Part shown: piece after piece, positions 4,865 through 58,517 of the stretch
How the letters are laid out: every line of letters starts with the position of its first letter
How positions within the stretch are numbered: the first letter of the stretch is position 1
From: Mariprofundaceae bacterium
Lineage (GTDB): Bacteria > Pseudomonadota > Zetaproteobacteria > Mariprofundales > Mariprofundaceae
Direction of reading: 5' to 3'
Length of the DNA: 64,000 nucleotides
Assembly (NCBI GenBank): GCA_030950925.1
Contig: JAUZQO010000003.1
Location: 1-64,000, forward strand
Made by a program: the position numbers and the translations under genes
Notes under the pieces: model-generated
What the model was told of the DNA's origin: nothing
Seen by the model: the letters and a program-made list of their open reading frames with translations, nothing else
The model's database searches: none

Positions 4865-6187
4865 TCAACGACGCTCTTGCACCACATGCATCGCTTTCAA
4901 CACATCCAAAGCCCGTTGCAACTGTACATCTTTGGACAAACGATCCGTCATCAACTTCTCTTTGGGTGCGACATCTTTTTTCACAACACCATCTTTTTTA
5001 CCATTGCCATTCGCCAGATGACCTTTCAAGTCACGTTCAAAAATACGCAAACTTTTTTTCTTCTTCGGTTCAGGTTTTAATGTCACCCAAGGCACCTCAA
5101 TATCAGGCTCAATACCTGTGGCTTGAATCGAGCGACCCGATGGGGTGTAATAAAGTGCAGTGGTTAATTTAAACGCCGTGCCATCAGGCAATGGAATAAT
5201 ACGTTGCACCGAACCTTTACCAAAGCTCTTCACGCCCATCAACACCGCCCGCTGATTATCCTGCAATGCACCACTCACAATCTCAGAAGCCGATGCTGAA
5301 CCACTGTTAATCAATACCACCAAAGGCTGACCATCCAACAAATCACCTTTTTTGGCTATAAAATTCATATTTTTACCCACGCGTGATTTGGTACTGACAA
5401 TACCTCCACTATCAAGAAACATATCACTGATTTCCACAGCCTGATCCAACAAGCCACCGGGATTGTTTCTTAAATCCAACACTGCGCCTTTAAATTTTCC
5501 ACCCGATTCTTTTTTAAGCGTGGCGATTTGCTTGGTCAATTCTTTGCTGGTTTGCTCTTGAAATTGTGTCACCCGCAACCAAACATAGCCAGGAGCTAAC
5601 ATCCCACTTTTTACCGATTTCACATGAATGACAGCACGAACAATTTTAATCTCCAAGGGTTGCGGATTTGTTTTACGAAAAATGGTCAATACCAATGGTG
5701 AGCCAGGTTTTCCACGCATCAATTTTACGGCTTCAGGTAACGATAAATCTTTGGCCAATTGATCGCCAATTTTCACAATCAAATCACCCGCCAAAATACC
5801 CGCATGATCAGCAGGTGTATCTTCAATGGGGGAAATGATACGAATACCACCCTCTGCCGATGATATTTCAATACCCAAACCACCGAATTCACCCGTGGTT
5901 TCGACCTGCATCTGCTTATACATCTCTTTATTCATATACGTTGAATGCGGATCAAGGCTGGACAACATGCCACTCAAGGCACCATCAATCAGTTCCTCAT
6001 CCGTCTTATCCTTCACATAAGTACGTTTCACCGCATCCATAATTTGAGCAAACTTATCCAACTGGCGATAGTCAGTGGAGGCTGTTGCTTTCTGATAACC
6101 TTCGGAAGGATTCCAGGCCATCGCACCTGCACCTATCAGTACGGCCGTTCCAGCCAACAACAACATACGTGTCTTCTTCAATTTCAT
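4865..6187 (-). CDS. ctpA: Carboxy-terminal processing protease CtpA (peptidase S41)
   Basis: Periplasmic serine protease that trims or degrades exported proteins. I prefer the ATG at 6187 with GGGG six bases upstream (440 aa). An ATG at 6199 would add MGCN. An N-terminal signal sequence or anchor (about 6-25) is followed by a PDZ domain (about 85-165) and the S41 catalytic domain (about 185-365). The nucleophile lies in GSASASE (about 296-302) and the general-base lysine in SFGKGS (about 324). The C-terminal tail is Lys-rich and poorly conserved. Its place between EnvC-like and YibQ-like genes suggests control of peptidoglycan hydrolases. Confidence 0.93.
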   Translation of the reverse strand: MKLKKTRMLLLAGTAVLIGAGAMAWNPSEGYQKATASTDYRQLDKFAQIMDAVKRTYVKDKTDEELIDGALSGMLSSLDPHSTYMNKEMYKQMQVETTGEFGGLGIEISSAEGGIRIISPIEDTPADHAGILAGDLIVKIGDQLAKDLSLPEAVKLMRGKPGSPLVLTIFRKTNPQPLEIKIVRAVIHVKSVKSGMLAPGYVWLRVTQFQEQTSKELTKQIATLKKESGGKFKGAVLDLRNNPGGLLDQAVEISDMFLDSGGIVSTKSRVGKNMNFIAKKGDLLDGQPLVVLINSGSASASEIVSGALQDNQRAVLMGVKSFGKGSVQRIIPLPDGTAFKLTTALYYTPSGRSIQATGIEPDIEVPWVTLKPEPKKKKSLRIFERDLKGHLANGNGKKDGVVKKDVAPKEKLMTDRLSKDVQLQRALDVLKAMHVVQERR

Positions 6188-8174: not shown

Positions 8175-8797
8175 TCCTGACCTCTATTAACATCGCACGC
8201 CCCATAGGCGGCGCATATCTCATTACTTTTCTTAGCATCCAACACTGTGGATACATCTTGCCCTGTCAAAATCGCTTGGCGAATCTGACTTGCCGATATA
8301 TTCGGTGGTGCATCCTGAATATAACTTACACATCCAGCACAAGGCTTGCTTGGTGATGCCACCACCCGCCACTCTTGATGGTGGCAGGCTTGTTCTCCCT
8401 CTCGGTTCACCACCACAACATGACACAAGCTTTGGTGTTTCGGGTAGCCCACCCAAGTTGGCATACCTTGCCAAGCATCCATGCCCATCAACCAATAAGG
8501 CACAACATCAAGGGTGTTTGCAATACGCTGCATACTCTCAATCGAAGGCGTCGGACAACACGCATTCACTTCCCAATCCAAAACCTTTACAGCCAGCACA
8601 TCTTCAAATAAAGCTTGCACCCAATGCAGACGCTGATCTGCCGATATGGATGCTGTCAGCGAGCGGTGAACCGCTTGACCCACGGGGATCACCCAAACCT
8701 CATCCAAAGCCAAGACGTGTTGCGCATAAGTCACCAAAGCATGGTGTCCCAAATGTGGCGGATCAAAACTACCACCAAACACCGCTATTTTTTTCAT
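8171..8797 (-). CDS. nadD: Nicotinate-nucleotide adenylyltransferase NadD
   Basis: Adenylates nicotinate mononucleotide to deamido-NAD in NAD synthesis. 208 aa. The nucleotidyltransferase signature GGSFDPPHLGH (residues 8-18, containing HxGH) is intact, and the second signature ISASQIR lies near residue 167. The ATG lies 10 bases after the proA stop, and the gene overlaps rsfS by four bases. Confidence 0.97.
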   Translation of the reverse strand: MKKIAVFGGSFDPPHLGHHALVTYAQHVLALDEVWVIPVGQAVHRSLTASISADQRLHWVQALFEDVLAVKVLDWEVNACCPTPSIESMQRIANTLDVVPYWLMGMDAWQGMPTWVGYPKHQSLCHVVVVNREGEQACHHQEWRVVASPSKPCAGCVSYIQDAPPNISASQIRQAILTGQDVSTVLDAKKSNEICAAYGACDVNRGQE

Positions 8798-8806
8798 AAC
8801 TCGAAC

Positions 8807-10069
8807 TTAACTGCGCACCTCACCATGCCCCAGTACAATCCATTTCTGCGTGGTTAAACCTTCCAAACCTACAGGTCCACGCACATGCAAGCGATCCGTT
8901 GAGATACCAATTTCAGCACCCAAACCATACTCAAATCCATCGGCAAAACGGGTGCTGGCATTCCACATCACCGAAGATGAATCAACTTCACGTAAGAAAC
9001 GTTGTCCTGTCGCATAGTTGGCAGTCACAATGCTCTCAGTATGAGCAGAGCTATATTGCGCAATATGATCCATCGCTGCATCCACCGATCTGACAACTTT
9101 GATGGATAAAATCGCAGCCAAATACTCAGTCGCCCAATCCTCAGCCTTTGCCAAACCAACTTTCAAATCAGAACACGCCGCTTGGGTCGCTTCACAACCC
9201 CGCACTTCCACCCCTTTTGCCAACAATGCTTTCACAAGCTTAGGCAATACGGATACAGCACCTTCATGCACCAACAGGGTTTCCATAGCATTACACACAC
9301 CATAACGATGTGTTTTGGCATTCAAAGCAATCGAAACAGCCATCGCTTCATCAGCTTCGGCATCAATATAAACATGACAAATACCATCCAAATGCTTAAT
9401 CACAGGCACCTTGGCATCTGCGGATACACGTGCCACCAGTGATTTTCCACCACGAGGAATCAATACATCCACATATTCATCCGCCGCCAACAATGCGCCA
9501 ACCAAAGCGCGATCGGTTTGTTCAATCAATTGTACCGCATCCTCAGGCACACCCGATTGACTCAAGGCTTGCCGTAAAATCTTGGCAATGGCTCGGTTTG
9601 AATGAATCGCTTCCGATCCCCCACGTAGAATCACCGCATTACCTGATTTCAAACATAATGCCGCAGCATCTGCTGTCACATTCGGGCGAGACTCATAAAT
9701 AATCCCGATCACACCCAAGGGGACACGCATATGCCCAACCTGAATCCCCGAAGGACGGTACACCAAATCCGAAATCGCACCCACGGGATCTGGTAATGCA
9801 GCAATTTTTTCCAAACCCTGCGCCATAGCTTCCACGCGTTCAGCATTGAGGAGCAATCTATCCTTCAATGCTGGTTCAAGATTATTTTCATCCGCAGCCT
9901 GCATATCCAAAGCATTGGCTGCCAATACATCAGACATTTGCTGACGTAATAATGTTGCGGCAATTTGCAAGGCTTCATCTTTGGCACGCGTTTCAATCAT
10001 ACGCATCTGACGTGATGCTGCTTTTGCCTTGATGCCTAACGCTTGAATCACTTGTTTTGCTTCACCCAT
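8807..10069 (-). CDS. proA: Gamma-glutamyl phosphate reductase ProA
   Basis: Second step of proline synthesis: NADPH reduction of gamma-glutamyl phosphate to the semialdehyde. 420 aa, the usual length. Family segments include [42 protein letters not shown] and the catalytic Cys in [12 protein letters not shown] (about 280-285). The gene lies 10 bases downstream of proB, so the two proline genes form one unit with obgE and nadD. Confidence 0.97.
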
Positions 10070-53577: not shown

Positions 53578-53628
53578 GTCAATATTTTTCATTGACATCG
53601 TAAATATATTATACATATCATAGTCAAT
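53578..53628 (+). promoter_or_regulatory. Promoter and likely autoregulatory operator of brnTA
   Basis: TTGACA (53592-53597) and TATCAT (53616-53621) are 18 bases apart. Three hexamers overlap the promoter: GTCAAT (53578-53583), ATTGAC (53591-53596) and GTCAAT (53623-53628), alternating in orientation. BrnA-type antitoxins are known to repress their own operons, so these are plausible operator half-sites. The start codon is very close to the expected transcript start, so the message may be almost leaderless. Confidence 0.5.
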
Positions 53629-53914
53629 GATTAAATTTGAATGGGATTCAATCAAAGCTGATTCGAATATAAAAAAGCATAGCATATCTTTTGAAGAAGC
53701 TAAGTCGGTTTTTTATGACGAGTTTGCTGTTCAATTTTATCAAAATGATAACATAGAAGGAGAAGATCGTTTTTTGCTACTTGGGCTTAGTACAACACAC
53801 AAGGTTCTTATGATTTGTTACTGCGAAAGAGATTCGGGAAATATTGTTCAAATCATTTCTGCACGTGAAGCAACGAAAAACGAACGAAAATTCTATGAAG
53901 GTGATGGAAAATGA
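53627..53914 (+). CDS. brnT: Type II toxin BrnT
   Basis: 95-aa toxin with RelE-like ribonuclease activity in characterised members. Family features are FEWDSIKADSNIKKHSISFE (residues 4-23), EAKSVFYDE, GEDRFLLLGLS and the C-terminal ISAREATKNERKFYE. It overlaps the antitoxin gene by four bases (ATGA). It marks the left edge of the accessory island within the cobalamin operon. Confidence 0.92.
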   Translation: MIKFEWDSIKADSNIKKHSISFEEAKSVFYDEFAVQFYQNDNIEGEDRFLLLGLSTTHKVLMICYCERDSGNIVQIISAREATKNERKFYEGDGK

Positions 53915-54132
53915 AAAGTGAATATGATTTATCCAAAATGCAATCAAGAAAAAATCCTTATGCTTCTAAACTGAAAAAACCTGTGACCATGAGGTTAAGC
54001 GAAGATGTTATTGAATATTTTAAATCCATGGCAAAAGATTCAGATATTCCATACCAAACACTGATTAATTTATACCTTCGAGATTGTTTAAACCAGCACC
54101 GTAAGCTTGATATTTCATGGCACTCATCATGA
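53911..54132 (+). CDS. brnA: Type II antitoxin BrnA
   Basis: 73-aa antitoxin. The C-terminal part has the DNA-binding ribbon-helix-helix-like segment VTMRLSEDVIEYFKSMAKDS followed by YQTLINLYLRDCL. It neutralises BrnT and probably represses the operon. Its stop codon overlaps the start of the truncated GIY-YIG gene (ATGA). Confidence 0.9.
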   Translation: MKSEYDLSKMQSRKNPYASKLKKPVTMRLSEDVIEYFKSMAKDSDIPYQTLINLYLRDCLNQHRKLDISWHSS

Positions 54133-54362
54133 ACCTTTTACCCAAAACAGTCCGACTCTTTTTGATGGATGGCGTGGCTTCTGGGCGTTGGATGTGTGAA
54201 TTATCGAACTGGACAGGAAAAGCGTATAAAATACCTCGTTCGATGCTGAATCAAAGTAAAGATAGAGAGGATTTACAATCGACAGGTATTTATCTTTTAT
54301 TCGGACGTAGTGATGAATTGGGCGGAAAAGATAGAATATACATTGGTGAGGCTGAAAGTTAG
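54129..54362 (+). pseudogene. N-terminal fragment of a GIY-YIG/DUF4357 nuclease, cut by the cassette
   Basis: 77 aa from the ATG that overlaps the brnA stop. It reads like the start of GIY-YIG proteins with a C-terminal DUF4357: CELSNWTGKAYKIPRSML, STGIYLLFG and IYIGEAE. Right after IGEAE the frame ends in TAG, and that TAG is part of the cassette's first six bases (TTAGCT). The catalytic domain is therefore incomplete. The matching C-terminal piece lies at 58303-58451, 3.9 kb away. Confidence 0.85.
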
Positions 54363-54407
54363 CTGTATAAAATCAAACACGGTGGCAACATCAAAAAGTA
54401 GGAAAAA

Positions 54408-56789
54408 ATGGATAAAATTGTAATAAAAAAATACCTAAAGCAACAGAAAGTAAAGGCTGTTGAAAAGTTTGATTTTGCCAAATCCACAATCAGCTATACC
54501 AATGCAATCAAACAGACCCGTGAAATAAAGAACATCACAGGTGATGAGGAAATAGTCCGTGCCTATGTACTTACAAAATTAGTCAATATTCTTGGGTACA
54601 AACCAGAAAATATTGAAATTGAAAAAGAATATGATATTGGCAGACCAAAAGTAAACAAGCCAAGAATTGATGTTGTTGTCAGAGACAACAACGGTGATGC
54701 TTTTCTCTATATCGAACTAAAAAGCCCAGAAGATTACGAAAAAGACAAAGACGAAGTAATAGAAAAACAGCTTTTTAATCTTGCCTCTCAAGAAAAAGGA
54801 CAAGGCATAGGCGTTAAATATCTTGTTCTCTATTCATTCGATATTGTTAATGATGAAATTAAAGATAAATGTATCATCATTGATTATGAAAAATACACCT
54901 CTTTTGATTCATGGAAAGAGGAGAGAAACTTTGCCGATGAACTCCCCGCCAGATACGGAAAGGCACAGAAAGAACCTTTTATAAAAGGTGGAAAAAAAGA
55001 TTTAGAAACCAATTTTAGCCATGAGCAATTAGAAAGCCTTAGAAAAAATTTGCACAATGTCTTATGGGGTGGTGGCGGGACAGATGATAACGAGGTTTTT
55101 TCATCTTTAACCAACTTGATATTGGCAAAAATTCAAGATGAGAGCGAAAAAAAGGGAAGTGAAAAATACGACTTCCAAATTTTTTCTTACGCAAAAAAAA
55201 GCGATGAAAAATTTGAAACCAAAGACCAATTATTTGATCGCATCAACACCCTGTACCGCAGAGCATTAAAACAACGTCTTAATATCCTTGATGAAAAAAA
55301 GCTGAATAAATCTTATGTTATTGATGAAAATAAATTTTCATTAGCAAAGTTAAAATATACCGTTCAAGAACTGGAAAAATACTCTTTTGTCGATGGAAAA
55401 AACAGCTTTGATGGCAAAGACATTCTAGGCGACTTTTTTGAAGGCATTATCCGAGAAGGATTTAAGCAAAGCAAAGGGCAATTTTTTACCCATATCAATG
55501 TAGTTCGATTTCTATTGTGGGGTTTGCAACTTGATAAATTAGCATTAGATCGGGTGAATAATGACTTAGAAATTCCCTATCTCATTGATCCCAGTGCAGG
55601 CAGTGGTACTTTCTTAATTGAATACATGAAATTTATCACCAAAAACCTTAAATATCGCTTTAAAGATAAATTAGACGACACCCGAGATATTGATGATAAA
55701 TTTCATCAATGGTTTATGCCCGACCACCGAGAAAACAAATGGGCTAAAGATTACATCTATGGTAGTGAAATAAATTTTAATCTTGGCACAGCCACCAAAG
55801 TAAATATGATTTTACACGGTGATGGTTCAAGCAATATTTTTGTAAAAGATGGGTTATTGCCGTTTAAGCTCTACGACAAAGAAACCGCCCCTAACTTTCT
55901 TAAACAATATGAGCCTGATAATCTTTATGCCGATAAAGAGGTCAATAAACAATTTGATGTCATTATTACCAATCCACCTTTTAGCGTAGATTTAGACAAT
56001 GAGACCAAAAAGAATGTAAAAAAAGAATTTGTCTTTGGCGACAAAAAGAACTCTGAAAATTTGTTTATTGAAAGATGGTATCAACTGTTAAAACCCAATG
56101 GGCGTTTTGCCGCTGTTTTACCTGAAAGCGTATTTGATACCACCGAAAATAAATATATTCGTTTGTTTGTCTATAAATATTTCAAAGTAAAAGCTATTGT
56201 TTCATTACCACAAGTGACTTTTGAACCATACACTTCAACCAAAACCAGTCTGCTTTTTGCTCAAAAGAAAACAACGGGTGAAATAGAACAATGGAATGAG
56301 CTATGGAGTAAATACTCTAATGAATGGAGTTTGTTAAAAACTCGTTGTGATAAAGAAATTGAGCATTTTATCAAAGGAAAAGCCATTTCTAAAAAATGGG
56401 CTATTGCTAAAGAAACAGAAAAAAAGCGACAAAATAACCTGTTGCGATTATTGAAAGATTATCTGGAAGAAGATGACGATAAATTATCTTTAAAGGAACT
56501 GGTAGAAAAATATCAGAGTGAAATAGTCGAACTATGCAAATTCGATAAAGACACGAAAGAAAGTTTTGGTTTTGTCAATACTTGGTGGGTATTCGGTGAA
56601 GTAGCCAAAGAATTAAACTACTCAATATTTATGGCAGAAGTAGACCATGTGGGATATAAACGTACCAAACGAGGTGAAAAACCTATGCCAAATGACCTTT
56701 ACCGTTTAAGTGCAGATGGTGAGGTTATGGTTAATGATGGCGTAAAAGAAACAGCATTGGATTTTTTGAGAGGTGTTAAATGGGATTAA
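54408..56789 (+). CDS. Fused restriction endonuclease/N6-adenine methyltransferase subunit (BcgI- or type I-like)
   Basis: 793 aa. The N-terminus (about 40-190) looks like the type I R-subunit N-terminal nuclease domain: D88 in RIDVVV, then E103-x-K105 in YIELK, matching the PD-(D/E)xK pattern. A type I M-subunit-like part follows, with SAM motif I DPSAGSGTF (394-402) and catalytic motif IV NPPF (522-525), which indicates N6-adenine methylation. No helicase (DEAD) domain is present. Nuclease plus methylase in one chain with a separate specificity subunit resembles the BcgI type of type IIB enzymes. TAGGA lies before the ATG. The AT-rich, Lys-rich coding differs from the neighbours. Confidence 0.82.
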   Translation: MDKIVIKKYLKQQKVKAVEKFDFAKSTISYTNAIKQTREIKNITGDEEIVRAYVLTKLVNILGYKPENIEIEKEYDIGRPKVNKPRIDVVVRDNNGDAFLYIELKSPEDYEKDKDEVIEKQLFNLASQEKGQGIGVKYLVLYSFDIVNDEIKDKCIIIDYEKYTSFDSWKEERNFADELPARYGKAQKEPFIKGGKKDLETNFSHEQLESLRKNLHNVLWGGGGTDDNEVFSSLTNLILAKIQDESEKKGSEKYDFQIFSYAKKSDEKFETKDQLFDRINTLYRRALKQRLNILDEKKLNKSYVIDENKFSLAKLKYTVQELEKYSFVDGKNSFDGKDILGDFFEGIIREGFKQSKGQFFTHINVVRFLLWGLQLDKLALDRVNNDLEIPYLIDPSAGSGTFLIEYMKFITKNLKYRFKDKLDDTRDIDDKFHQWFMPDHRENKWAKDYIYGSEINFNLGTATKVNMILHGDGSSNIFVKDGLLPFKLYDKETAPNFLKQYEPDNLYADKEVNKQFDVIITNPPFSVDLDNETKKNVKKEFVFGDKKNSENLFIERWYQLLKPNGRFAAVLPESVFDTTENKYIRLFVYKYFKVKAIVSLPQVTFEPYTSTKTSLLFAQKKTTGEIEQWNELWSKYSNEWSLLKTRCDKEIEHFIKGKAISKKWAIAKETEKKRQNNLLRLLKDYLEEDDDKLSLKELVEKYQSEIVELCKFDKDTKESFGFVNTWWVFGEVAKELNYSIFMAEVDHVGYKRTKRGEKPMPNDLYRLSADGEVMVNDGVKETALDFLRGVKWD

Positions 56790-58225
56790 GGCAGTTTGAT
56801 ATTACGCTAGATCAGTTTTCCGCAGAAGCCTCATTACGATGCGATACAGATTTCATTGATTTTAGTCGAATACCTAAAGAAAAATCATTTTCCTTTGGTA
56901 CCTTATTTGATGTTGTTGAATATGAAAAAAAAGATCGTTTAGCTCTAATTGATGATATTGAAGATATACCATTTCAATATTCAGAAATCGGTAATGTCAC
57001 AAAACAAGGTGATGTTGAGGCAGTTACATTAGATTTTTCTACAAGAGATGAACTTGTAGAGGACTACTTTAAAAAAATAGAAAAAGGTGATATTCAAACA
57101 GCTCAAGCAGGAAATATTCTGCTTTCAAAAGTTCGCCCTAACCTTAAAAAATATGTTCTCATTGATGGTGATCTAACAGATATTTTTTATACAACAGCAC
57201 TCATTCAGCTTAGACCAAAAAAGCTAAACAAGTTGCTTTTCTATTCTTTGCGCACAGTTTTTTATAACAACCTAATGTCAATCGCCAGACAAGGAAAAGG
57301 CTATCCAACCCTTAAAGTTAATGATCTTTTTTGCATTAAGTTGGACTCAAATATAATCAATATGTTTGAGGATAAGGAGCAAAGTCTTTTAAATAAAATA
57401 GAACCAATCGAGCAAAACATAAAAAAACTTAAATCAAAAATTAAAGCTCCTCATGAAGTTGTCAATCGAGTTTTTACCAGAGAGCTTAATTTTAATCTTG
57501 AACGTTTTGAAGCACTGAAAAAAGTAAAAATATTTGATGTTGATTTTAGCCACTATGGAAATAATAAAGATTTACGCTATAGCGTTAAATTTCATCGCCA
57601 AGCTGGACAATTTGTCCTTGATGAACTCAAAAGCAAAACCAGTAAAAAAATCAAAGACTTTATATCTGTGCCAATAGTCTTAGGCAAAGGCATATCCCCT
57701 GCACAATACGATGATGATAATGGAGAATACTATTACCTTTCAATGGCAACCATTAAAAATTGGAAGTTTGAAAAAGATAATGCTCATTTGGTAACGGATA
57801 AATTTGCTAGTGATAATCAAAATAAAACCATACAGGTTAATGATATTCTCCTCGCCCGTTCAGGCGAGGGAACGATAGGAAAGGTAGCCATCATCACTGA
57901 TGAAGAGCTAAACGGTATCTTTGCTGACTTTACTATGCGGATTAGGTTGAAAGACTACAATTCATTATTTGCCTATTATTATTTCAGAACCGAATATTTT
58001 CAATACCTTGTGGAAATCAACAAAAAAGGACTTGGCAATAACACAAATATTTTCCCAAGCCAAATACAGGAATTTCCACTTTTAGATATTTCAACAGAAG
58101 AACAAGAGCGGATAGTCTTTGAAATAAAAACAGAACTGGATGCACAAGAAAAAATAAAAGCACAGATAGCACAAGAAAGAAACAAGATTGATGAAGTTAT
58201 CGAAAATGCAATCAAAAACAGCTAA
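56780..58225 (+). CDS. Restriction-modification specificity subunit (HsdS-like)
   Basis: 481 aa. It has two target-recognition domains, each followed by a helical dimer segment: half one ends near IEPIEQNIKKLKSKIKAPHE (about 212-231), half two near EEQERIVFEIKTELDAQEKI (about 445-464). Typical TRD segments are GKGYPTLKVNDLF and GISPAQYDDDNGEYYYLSMA, with NDILLARSGEGTIGKVAII. It starts inside the end of the methyltransferase gene (10-base overlap). The stop codon TAA lies within the R'' box of the attC-like site. Two TRDs predict a bipartite target. Confidence 0.85.
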   Translation: MGLRQFDITLDQFSAEASLRCDTDFIDFSRIPKEKSFSFGTLFDVVEYEKKDRLALIDDIEDIPFQYSEIGNVTKQGDVEAVTLDFSTRDELVEDYFKKIEKGDIQTAQAGNILLSKVRPNLKKYVLIDGDLTDIFYTTALIQLRPKKLNKLLFYSLRTVFYNNLMSIARQGKGYPTLKVNDLFCIKLDSNIINMFEDKEQSLLNKIEPIEQNIKKLKSKIKAPHEVVNRVFTRELNFNLERFEALKKVKIFDVDFSHYGNNKDLRYSVKFHRQAGQFVLDELKSKTSKKIKDFISVPIVLGKGISPAQYDDDNGEYYYLSMATIKNWKFEKDNAHLVTDKFASDNQNKTIQVNDILLARSGEGTIGKVAIITDEELNGIFADFTMRIRLKDYNSLFAYYYFRTEYFQYLVEINKKGLGNNTNIFPSQIQEFPLLDISTEEQERIVFEIKTELDAQEKIKAQIAQERNKIDEVIENAIKNS

Positions 58226-58302
58226 CAAAAGCATCCAGCGGACAGTTAAAAGCGGCGTTTCGCTACGCTACACTCTGCTTTTAACTGCCGCTGATGCAGG
58301 CG
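58220..58302 (+). other. attC-like recombination site
   Basis: R'' is AGCTAAC (58220-58226). The arm at 58231-58253 and the arm at 58277-58297 are complementary over 21 pairs apart from two extra bases, C and A, in the left arm, six bases apart. The bottom strand thus carries extrahelical G and T, as in known attC sites. The 23-base loop contains GTTTCGCTACGC, like many variable terminal structures. The right R' box is replaced by flanking DNA after the G, as expected after insertion at a non-attI site. Confidence 0.8.
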
Positions 58303-58451
58303 ATATAGATGGTGCACTGATTTTTCAGAAGGACTATTTGTTTAGCAGCCCCAGTGGCGCAAGTACGATAACACTTGGAAGAAGTAGCAATGGCTGGATT
58401 GAGTGGAAAAATAAAAAAGGTGAAACTTTAAAAGCATTGGAGCAAGCATAA
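58303..58451 (+). pseudogene. C-terminal DUF4357 fragment of the interrupted GIY-YIG nuclease
   Basis: The frame DIDGALIFQKDYLFSSPSGA then STITLGRSSNGWIEW and KNKKGETLKALEQA ends in TAA at 58451 and matches the usual DUF4357 end (KDYLFSSPS, LGR.ANGW.EWK). It starts right at the cassette's right junction. Roughly 150 residues of a normal-length protein, between this piece and the N-terminal piece, are missing, so more than a simple insertion has happened. Confidence 0.8.
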
Positions 58452-58461
58452 ATATGATTGG

Positions 58462-58517
58462 TTTTTCTCTGTGCCTCTGGTGGGTGAGCTTGTCGAACCC
58501 CTCTGTGGTGAAAAAAC
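58462..58517 (+). repeat. Composite repeat before cobM (copy C)
   Basis: TTTTTCTCTGTGCCTCTGG, then GGGTGAGCTTGTCGAACCCC, then CTCTGTGGTGAAAAAA. Same order and strand as copies A and B. It ends directly before the cobM ATG. Confidence 0.8.

Follow-up and report, generated by a model that had tools for sequence, protein, structure and literature searches.

Single attC sites found without an integrase are termed SALINs (Loot et al. 2024, as cited in PMC12690207, PMC12444791 and PMC12901181), and a cassette at a secondary site has a precedent in aadB in RSF1010 (Recchia & Hall 1995, as cited in PMC10127599). The consensus of such secondary sites is GNT/GWT (PMC4618277, PMC10127599). Defence genes are reported from integron cassettes (Kieffer et al. 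2025, as cited in PMC12690207), and restriction-modification is represented among Xanthomonas cassettes (PMC12444791). Lone secondary-site cassettes and defence cargo in cassettes are thus both already known; a literature search found no paper joining 'integron' and 'type IIB restriction'. BsaXI is inactivated by mutation of E73, D90, E105 or K107 (PMC11997821). A C-terminal paddle, residues 800-835 including D816 and E823, is found in BsaXI and its longer homologues, and short homologues (<800 aa) carry a knob only (PMC11997821).

The locus investigated here lies in the window, the whole stretch of 64,000 nucleotides (64 kb) that was analysed, on a contig of an uncultured-type draft genome of the Mariprofundaceae. 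We put at nearly 0.9 the probability that a segment of the window is an integron gene cassette with a BsaXI-like restriction-modification pair, inserted at a secondary site in a chromosomal gene. An attC site, a left boundary, homology, catalytic residues, purifying selection, a disrupted target gene and an intact intI gene are all observed. The earlier note on this DNA, made from the sequence alone, had claimed a 3.9 kb cassette with a full two-gene defence system, and this is borne out by a segment of 3,944 bp with its own attC, an RM gene and an S gene (Table 1).

As in SALIN and attG insertions, one cassette with its attC lies outside an integron, and the crossover, to judge by the right junction, falls after the G of a GNT/GWT core. 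The window differs from those cases in being a natural chromosomal example from a draft genome, in its two-gene cargo of 3.9 kb, and in the loss of approximately 155 codons of the target gene between the junctions. It shares restriction-modification cargo with the defence-gene cassettes, but here the system is a type IIB pair and lies outside an array. What is new in detail is that the cargo is of type IIB, that it is found behind attC sites in metagenome bins assigned to different phyla, and that the target gene is damaged; in combining known phenomena, the window is an unusually clear natural example.

Table 1. Coordinates of the cassette, its genes and the flanking target gene in the window.
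Feature	Position	Strand	Description
5′ part of disrupted host gene	54117..54358	+	GIY-YIG N-terminal part, ~80 codons; left target half ...GGCTGAAAG|
Integron gene cassette	54359..58302	+	3,944 bp
Cassette left end, TTAGCT	54359..54364	+	From R′ box of own attC; complements R″ 58220-58225
Cassette leader	54365..54407	+	Ribosome-binding-like AGGAAAAA; conserved in window, L099 and L100, partly in L101
RM subunit	54408..56789	+	793 aa; PD-(D/E)xK nuclease domain fused to N6-adenine methyltransferase, BsaXI type
Specificity (S) subunit	56780..58225	+	481 aa; S.BsaXI match, PADLOC Specificity_I
attC	58220..58302	+	R″ AGCTAAC 58220-58226, long hairpin arms, crossover after G 58302
3′ part of disrupted GIY-YIG/DUF4357 gene	58303..58451	+	DUF4357 tail; right target half |ATATAGATGG

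Cassette ends and the attC site

The start of a cassette carries the bases of its own R′ box, the complement of R″. In the window, a sequence check found GTTAGCT (54358-54364) to complement AGCTAAC at 7/7 bases, which agrees with the earlier observations that the ends are complementary and that the first six bases mirror R″. The proposed junctions are also supported, G|TTAGCT at 54358/54359 on the left and G|AT at 58302/58303 on the right, both after a G. A right junction of G|AT, and not G|TT, is as expected for a secondary (attG-type) site.

The attC site starts at the stop codon of the second gene, as had been noted, the TAA falling inside AGCTAAC. It has the R″-L″/L′-R′ arrangement of arms, with R′ taken from the target: GATATAG stands where GTT would begin the box, which is what recombination with a site other than an attC should leave. 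Folding of the bottom strand over 58215-58315 gives a long, imperfect hairpin of -22.8 kcal/mol (z -4.15), and none of 200 shuffled sequences was equally stable.

Because a search of Rfam gave no match to the attC, a covariance model (R1) was built from five attC sites in related genomes, leaving out the window. R1 scores 52 bits (E 5.5e-16) at 58221-58308 of the window, so the check by an attC model that had been suggested earlier gives a positive result; the only further match across the 64 kb comes from this hairpin on the opposite strand. At E <= 0.01, sites were matched in 21 of the 74 genomes of the taxonomic family. On four contigs with such sites an integron integrase is also encoded, at 0.7 to 3.3 kb from the site in G062:C34, G055:C126 and G066:C45 and at approximately 97 kb in G017:C5, which has a weaker attC site closer to intI; R1 therefore describes real attC sites. 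The search for further attC sites in the genome of the window, another of the suggested checks, returned none, even with laxer filters.

A core of TCCAGCGGACA...TGCCGCTGA is common to the window and to attC sites from the family. A DNA search of the family with the hairpin matched several genomes, among them G049 (L058), which carries the family-type core AACAAAAGCATCCAGCGGAC...GCCGCTGATGCTAAGCGTTAGGC. When 19 sites were compared side by side, the GTT end was present in 18/18 of the relatives' sites and GAT was found in the window alone. This GAT end is the mark of an attC that has recombined with a partner that is neither attC nor attI.

The restriction-modification pair and its homologues

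The two genes are tightly packed in one orientation, as first described, their ORFs overlapping by 10 bp on the same strand. The RM protein matches RM.BsaXI (PDB 8w0p_A) over 5-768 with E 1e-298 and contains the Pfam domains HSDR_N_2 and N6_Mtase, and the S protein matches S.BsaXI (PDB 8w0p_C) over residues 10-477 with E 3.2e-58. The nuclease residues E72, D88, E103 and K105 correspond to E73, D90, E105 and K107 of BsaXI, and the methylase motifs are intact (DPSAGSGTF at 394, NPPF at 522). The resemblance to BsaXI (PDB 8w0p; PMC11997821) thus extends to the RM fusion, the separate S subunit, the domain order and the conserved nuclease and methylase residues. Unlike BsaXI, the pair is carried on a cassette and its RM protein lacks the C-terminal paddle, the alignment ending at BsaXI residue 774. 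Since short knob-only homologues exist, the missing paddle marks a subgroup and is no bar to membership. The S subunits are only moderately similar, therefore the recognition specificity is not to be taken from the likeness. The pair described earlier as a nuclease-methylase plus specificity subunit is confirmed and, judged by these matches to PDB 8w0p, is more precisely a predicted BsaXI-like type IIB restriction-modification system. RM and S would form an (RM)2S complex that methylates adenines in a bipartite site, and unmodified DNA would be cut on both sides of that site, probably giving protection against phage DNA.

Eight homologues of the RM protein were taken from genome contigs (L099 to L106), which are named here after their metagenome bins, names that may be wrong for single contigs. 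In L099 (bin: Gammaproteobacteria bacterium) the RM is 93% identical and DNA homology to the window begins exactly at 54358; upstream, an HNH-gene cassette ends in a complete attC, GGCTAACAAACGCTTCC...GAAGCGAAGCG|TTAGCTGTC. In L100 (bin: Syntrophobacterales MAG) the RM is 89% identical and has the same start, behind the attC of a protease-like (SDH-type) gene cassette. Both contigs thus place the unit beside other attC sites. Flanks that are unrelated to each other join it at one base in L099, L100 and the window, and the left boundary is therefore real. LYKIKH at the left junction resembles the GIY-YIG protein as it would continue there, but the reading that the host gene simply runs on was rejected, since this sequence also stands behind the attC sites of L099 and L100.

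The RM of L101 (bin: Nitrospirae MAG) is 79% identical. Its cassette starts G|TTAGATG (5900-6010) with no attC before it, and may be another lone insertion. The cassette start is absent from L102 to L106. The 3′ attC of L099 has been lost at the R″ box (AGCTAA|ATCGGG) and the L100 contig stops inside the S gene, so that the attC-bearing 3′ end of the RM-S cassette is seen in the window only. The earlier note regarded a two-gene cassette of this kind as unusual; it is not a one-off, as it occurs behind attC sites in other lineages (L099 and L100). No other strong homologue of the RM protein was found among 399 genomes of the phylum (1/399, the window itself), none of the restriction-modification pair in phages or viral contigs, and only distant ones in plasmids.

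The dN/dS of the RM gene is 0.04 against L099 and 0.036 against L100, with synonymous sites near saturation; these values indicate purifying selection, which has kept the gene functional. The S genes of the window and L099 differ in the first half and are 83% identical in the second, which points to an exchange of one target-recognition domain. The L099 copy (8373-9774) has a frameshift within the first half of the gene, and the first of its recognition domains is like that of L102 and unlike that of the window.

In the 49 bp leader, no promoter-like site was found by a promoter scan. The best such site (11/12) is upstream of brnT at 53592, and the number of sites in the region is not above that in shuffled sequence. 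As the leader has no good promoter, the likeliest source of RM-S transcription would be read-through from an upstream brnTA or GIY-YIG promoter.

The interrupted gene and the integron integrase

In the congeners G005 and G002, the locus is occupied by an intact gene encoding a GIY-YIG/DUF4357 protein of 284 aa. It lies among cobalamin genes, beside cobM, and the gene order is kept in congeners that have no integron there. In the window, the N-terminal part of this gene ends ...GAAAG| at the cassette, with 82% amino acid identity to the intact gene. On the other side is a DUF4357 tail (Pfam profile 14-54, E 4.3e-19), whose nearest matches are 44-59% identical and, with few exceptions, carry a GIY-YIG/DUF4357 annotation or lie in such proteins. 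The tail is approximately 50% identical to that of the congeners and has no near relative among 78 genomes of the class or in plasmids. With the flanking genes 93-96% identical to G005, these values indicate that the allele in the window is a diverged one. That the tail is a second cassette was rejected on two grounds: such a cassette would open with TT following the G, and the matches of the tail are to GIY-YIG/DUF4357 proteins.

Comparison with relatives lacking the segment, the remaining check proposed earlier, had a mixed outcome: on the left, nucleotide homology stopped at 54357, but there was no clean empty site, as alignment to the relatives shows approximately 155 internal codons missing between the junctions. 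The right G|AT fits GNT/GWT; the relatives' gene being longer by these codons, the exact target sequence is not observed, and the left and right halves may derive from different sites. Being part of a draft assembly, the contig may be chimeric. Directly upstream of the interrupted gene is a brnT/brnA toxin-antitoxin pair (53587-54133); G005 and G002 lack it there, which makes it a second insertion at the locus.

As had been observed, no integron integrase is present in the 64 kb window (TIGR02249). The left flank of the cassette is the congener-conserved GIY-YIG gene, with no attI, and intI and attI are on another contig. The statement that the cassette was inserted away from any integron thus holds for its location; the genome itself has an intact intI and an attI on contig C72, so that a recombinase is at hand. 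This IntI is full-length and scores 451 bits against a cut-off of 265 (TIGR02249). On the C72 contig (L006, 1-1277), intI and the genes downstream of it are 95.7% identical to G005 (G005:C88, L112), and upstream the homology breaks at CTAAG|TTA, the contig ending 148 bp into the first cassette. CTAAG|TTA would be the attI point, and the first cassettes, which differ between C72 and G005, suggest that the integron has been active recently. Another intI (C45, L002, 223-1818) is broken and has a long N-terminal extension; this short contig may be foreign to the assembly. Elsewhere in the genus, truncated attC half-sites of the same family (both at ~1501-1540) lie directly behind the end of an S-subunit-like gene in G005:C16 (L059) and behind a C5-methylase gene in G010:C96 (L057). 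Together with the window, three restriction-modification-type genes of the genus therefore end in attC material.

Routes to the chromosome and their significance

In the proposed mechanism, an integron integrase, most likely the IntI of C72, would have recombined the folded bottom strand of the cassette attC with a degenerate site of the secondary (attG) type, having a GNT/GWT core, in the chromosomal GIY-YIG/DUF4357 gene by cobM. A second integrase-mediated event, acting on the attC end and a further G|AT site, may then have deleted the ~155 codons; insertion followed by deletion through attC and a secondary site would explain the gap. The cassette would thereafter have persisted outside the integron as a lone cassette.

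A genuine cassette could instead have arrived by homologous recombination or on another mobile element, within a pre-formed block of brnTA, GIY-YIG fragment, cassette and DUF4357 tail, from a strain in which it had inserted earlier. The region 53587-58500 is absent or diverged in G005 and G002 despite the near identity of the flanks (93-96%) to G005, the N-terminal part and tail reach only the 82% and 50% identity given above, and G+C is low (0.33-0.35) from 53500 on, brnTA included. We consider such an arrival possible, and somewhat improbable as the actual route; it would still require the original event between attC and a secondary site, and the N-terminal part and the 3′ noncoding context still match the genus. 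The isolated attC remnants behind the S-like gene of G005:C16 and the C5-methylase gene of G010:C96 would also be in keeping with the decay of a local integron array (CALIN), leaving a remnant with no secondary-site insertion. That the cobalamin gene order is kept in congeners showing no integron there, that the cassette is bordered at either end by the same type of gene, and that the window contains neither a second attC nor an intI make decay of an array highly improbable. It is extremely unlikely that the hairpin, although it is a long inverted repeat immediately after a gene, is just a terminator or a palindrome and that the ends of the segment match by coincidence, given the attC sequence core, R″ box and spacing behind the model's E of 5.5e-16, the absence of the hairpin from the terminator-scan list, and the left boundaries that L099 and L100 show independently.

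Insertion of the cassette at a secondary site is therefore the preferred reading. A wider proposal is that the type IIB cassette spreads between bacterial phyla via integrons, swaps part of S, and exits arrays by integrase-made insertion and deletion in chromosomal genes, integrons being a general dispersal route of restriction-modification systems to the chromosome; this we hold as speculative and rather doubtful. The window documents in sequence a natural case in which an integron cassette has carried a whole defence system of two genes from an array into a gene of the chromosome; the lineage has an intact integrase, and the case supplies a concrete pair of attC and target, together with an IntI, for testing. 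Outside the array, a restriction-modification cassette may gain expression from a host promoter and stable maintenance, and the case speaks in favour of integrons as genome-wide distributors of anti-phage systems.
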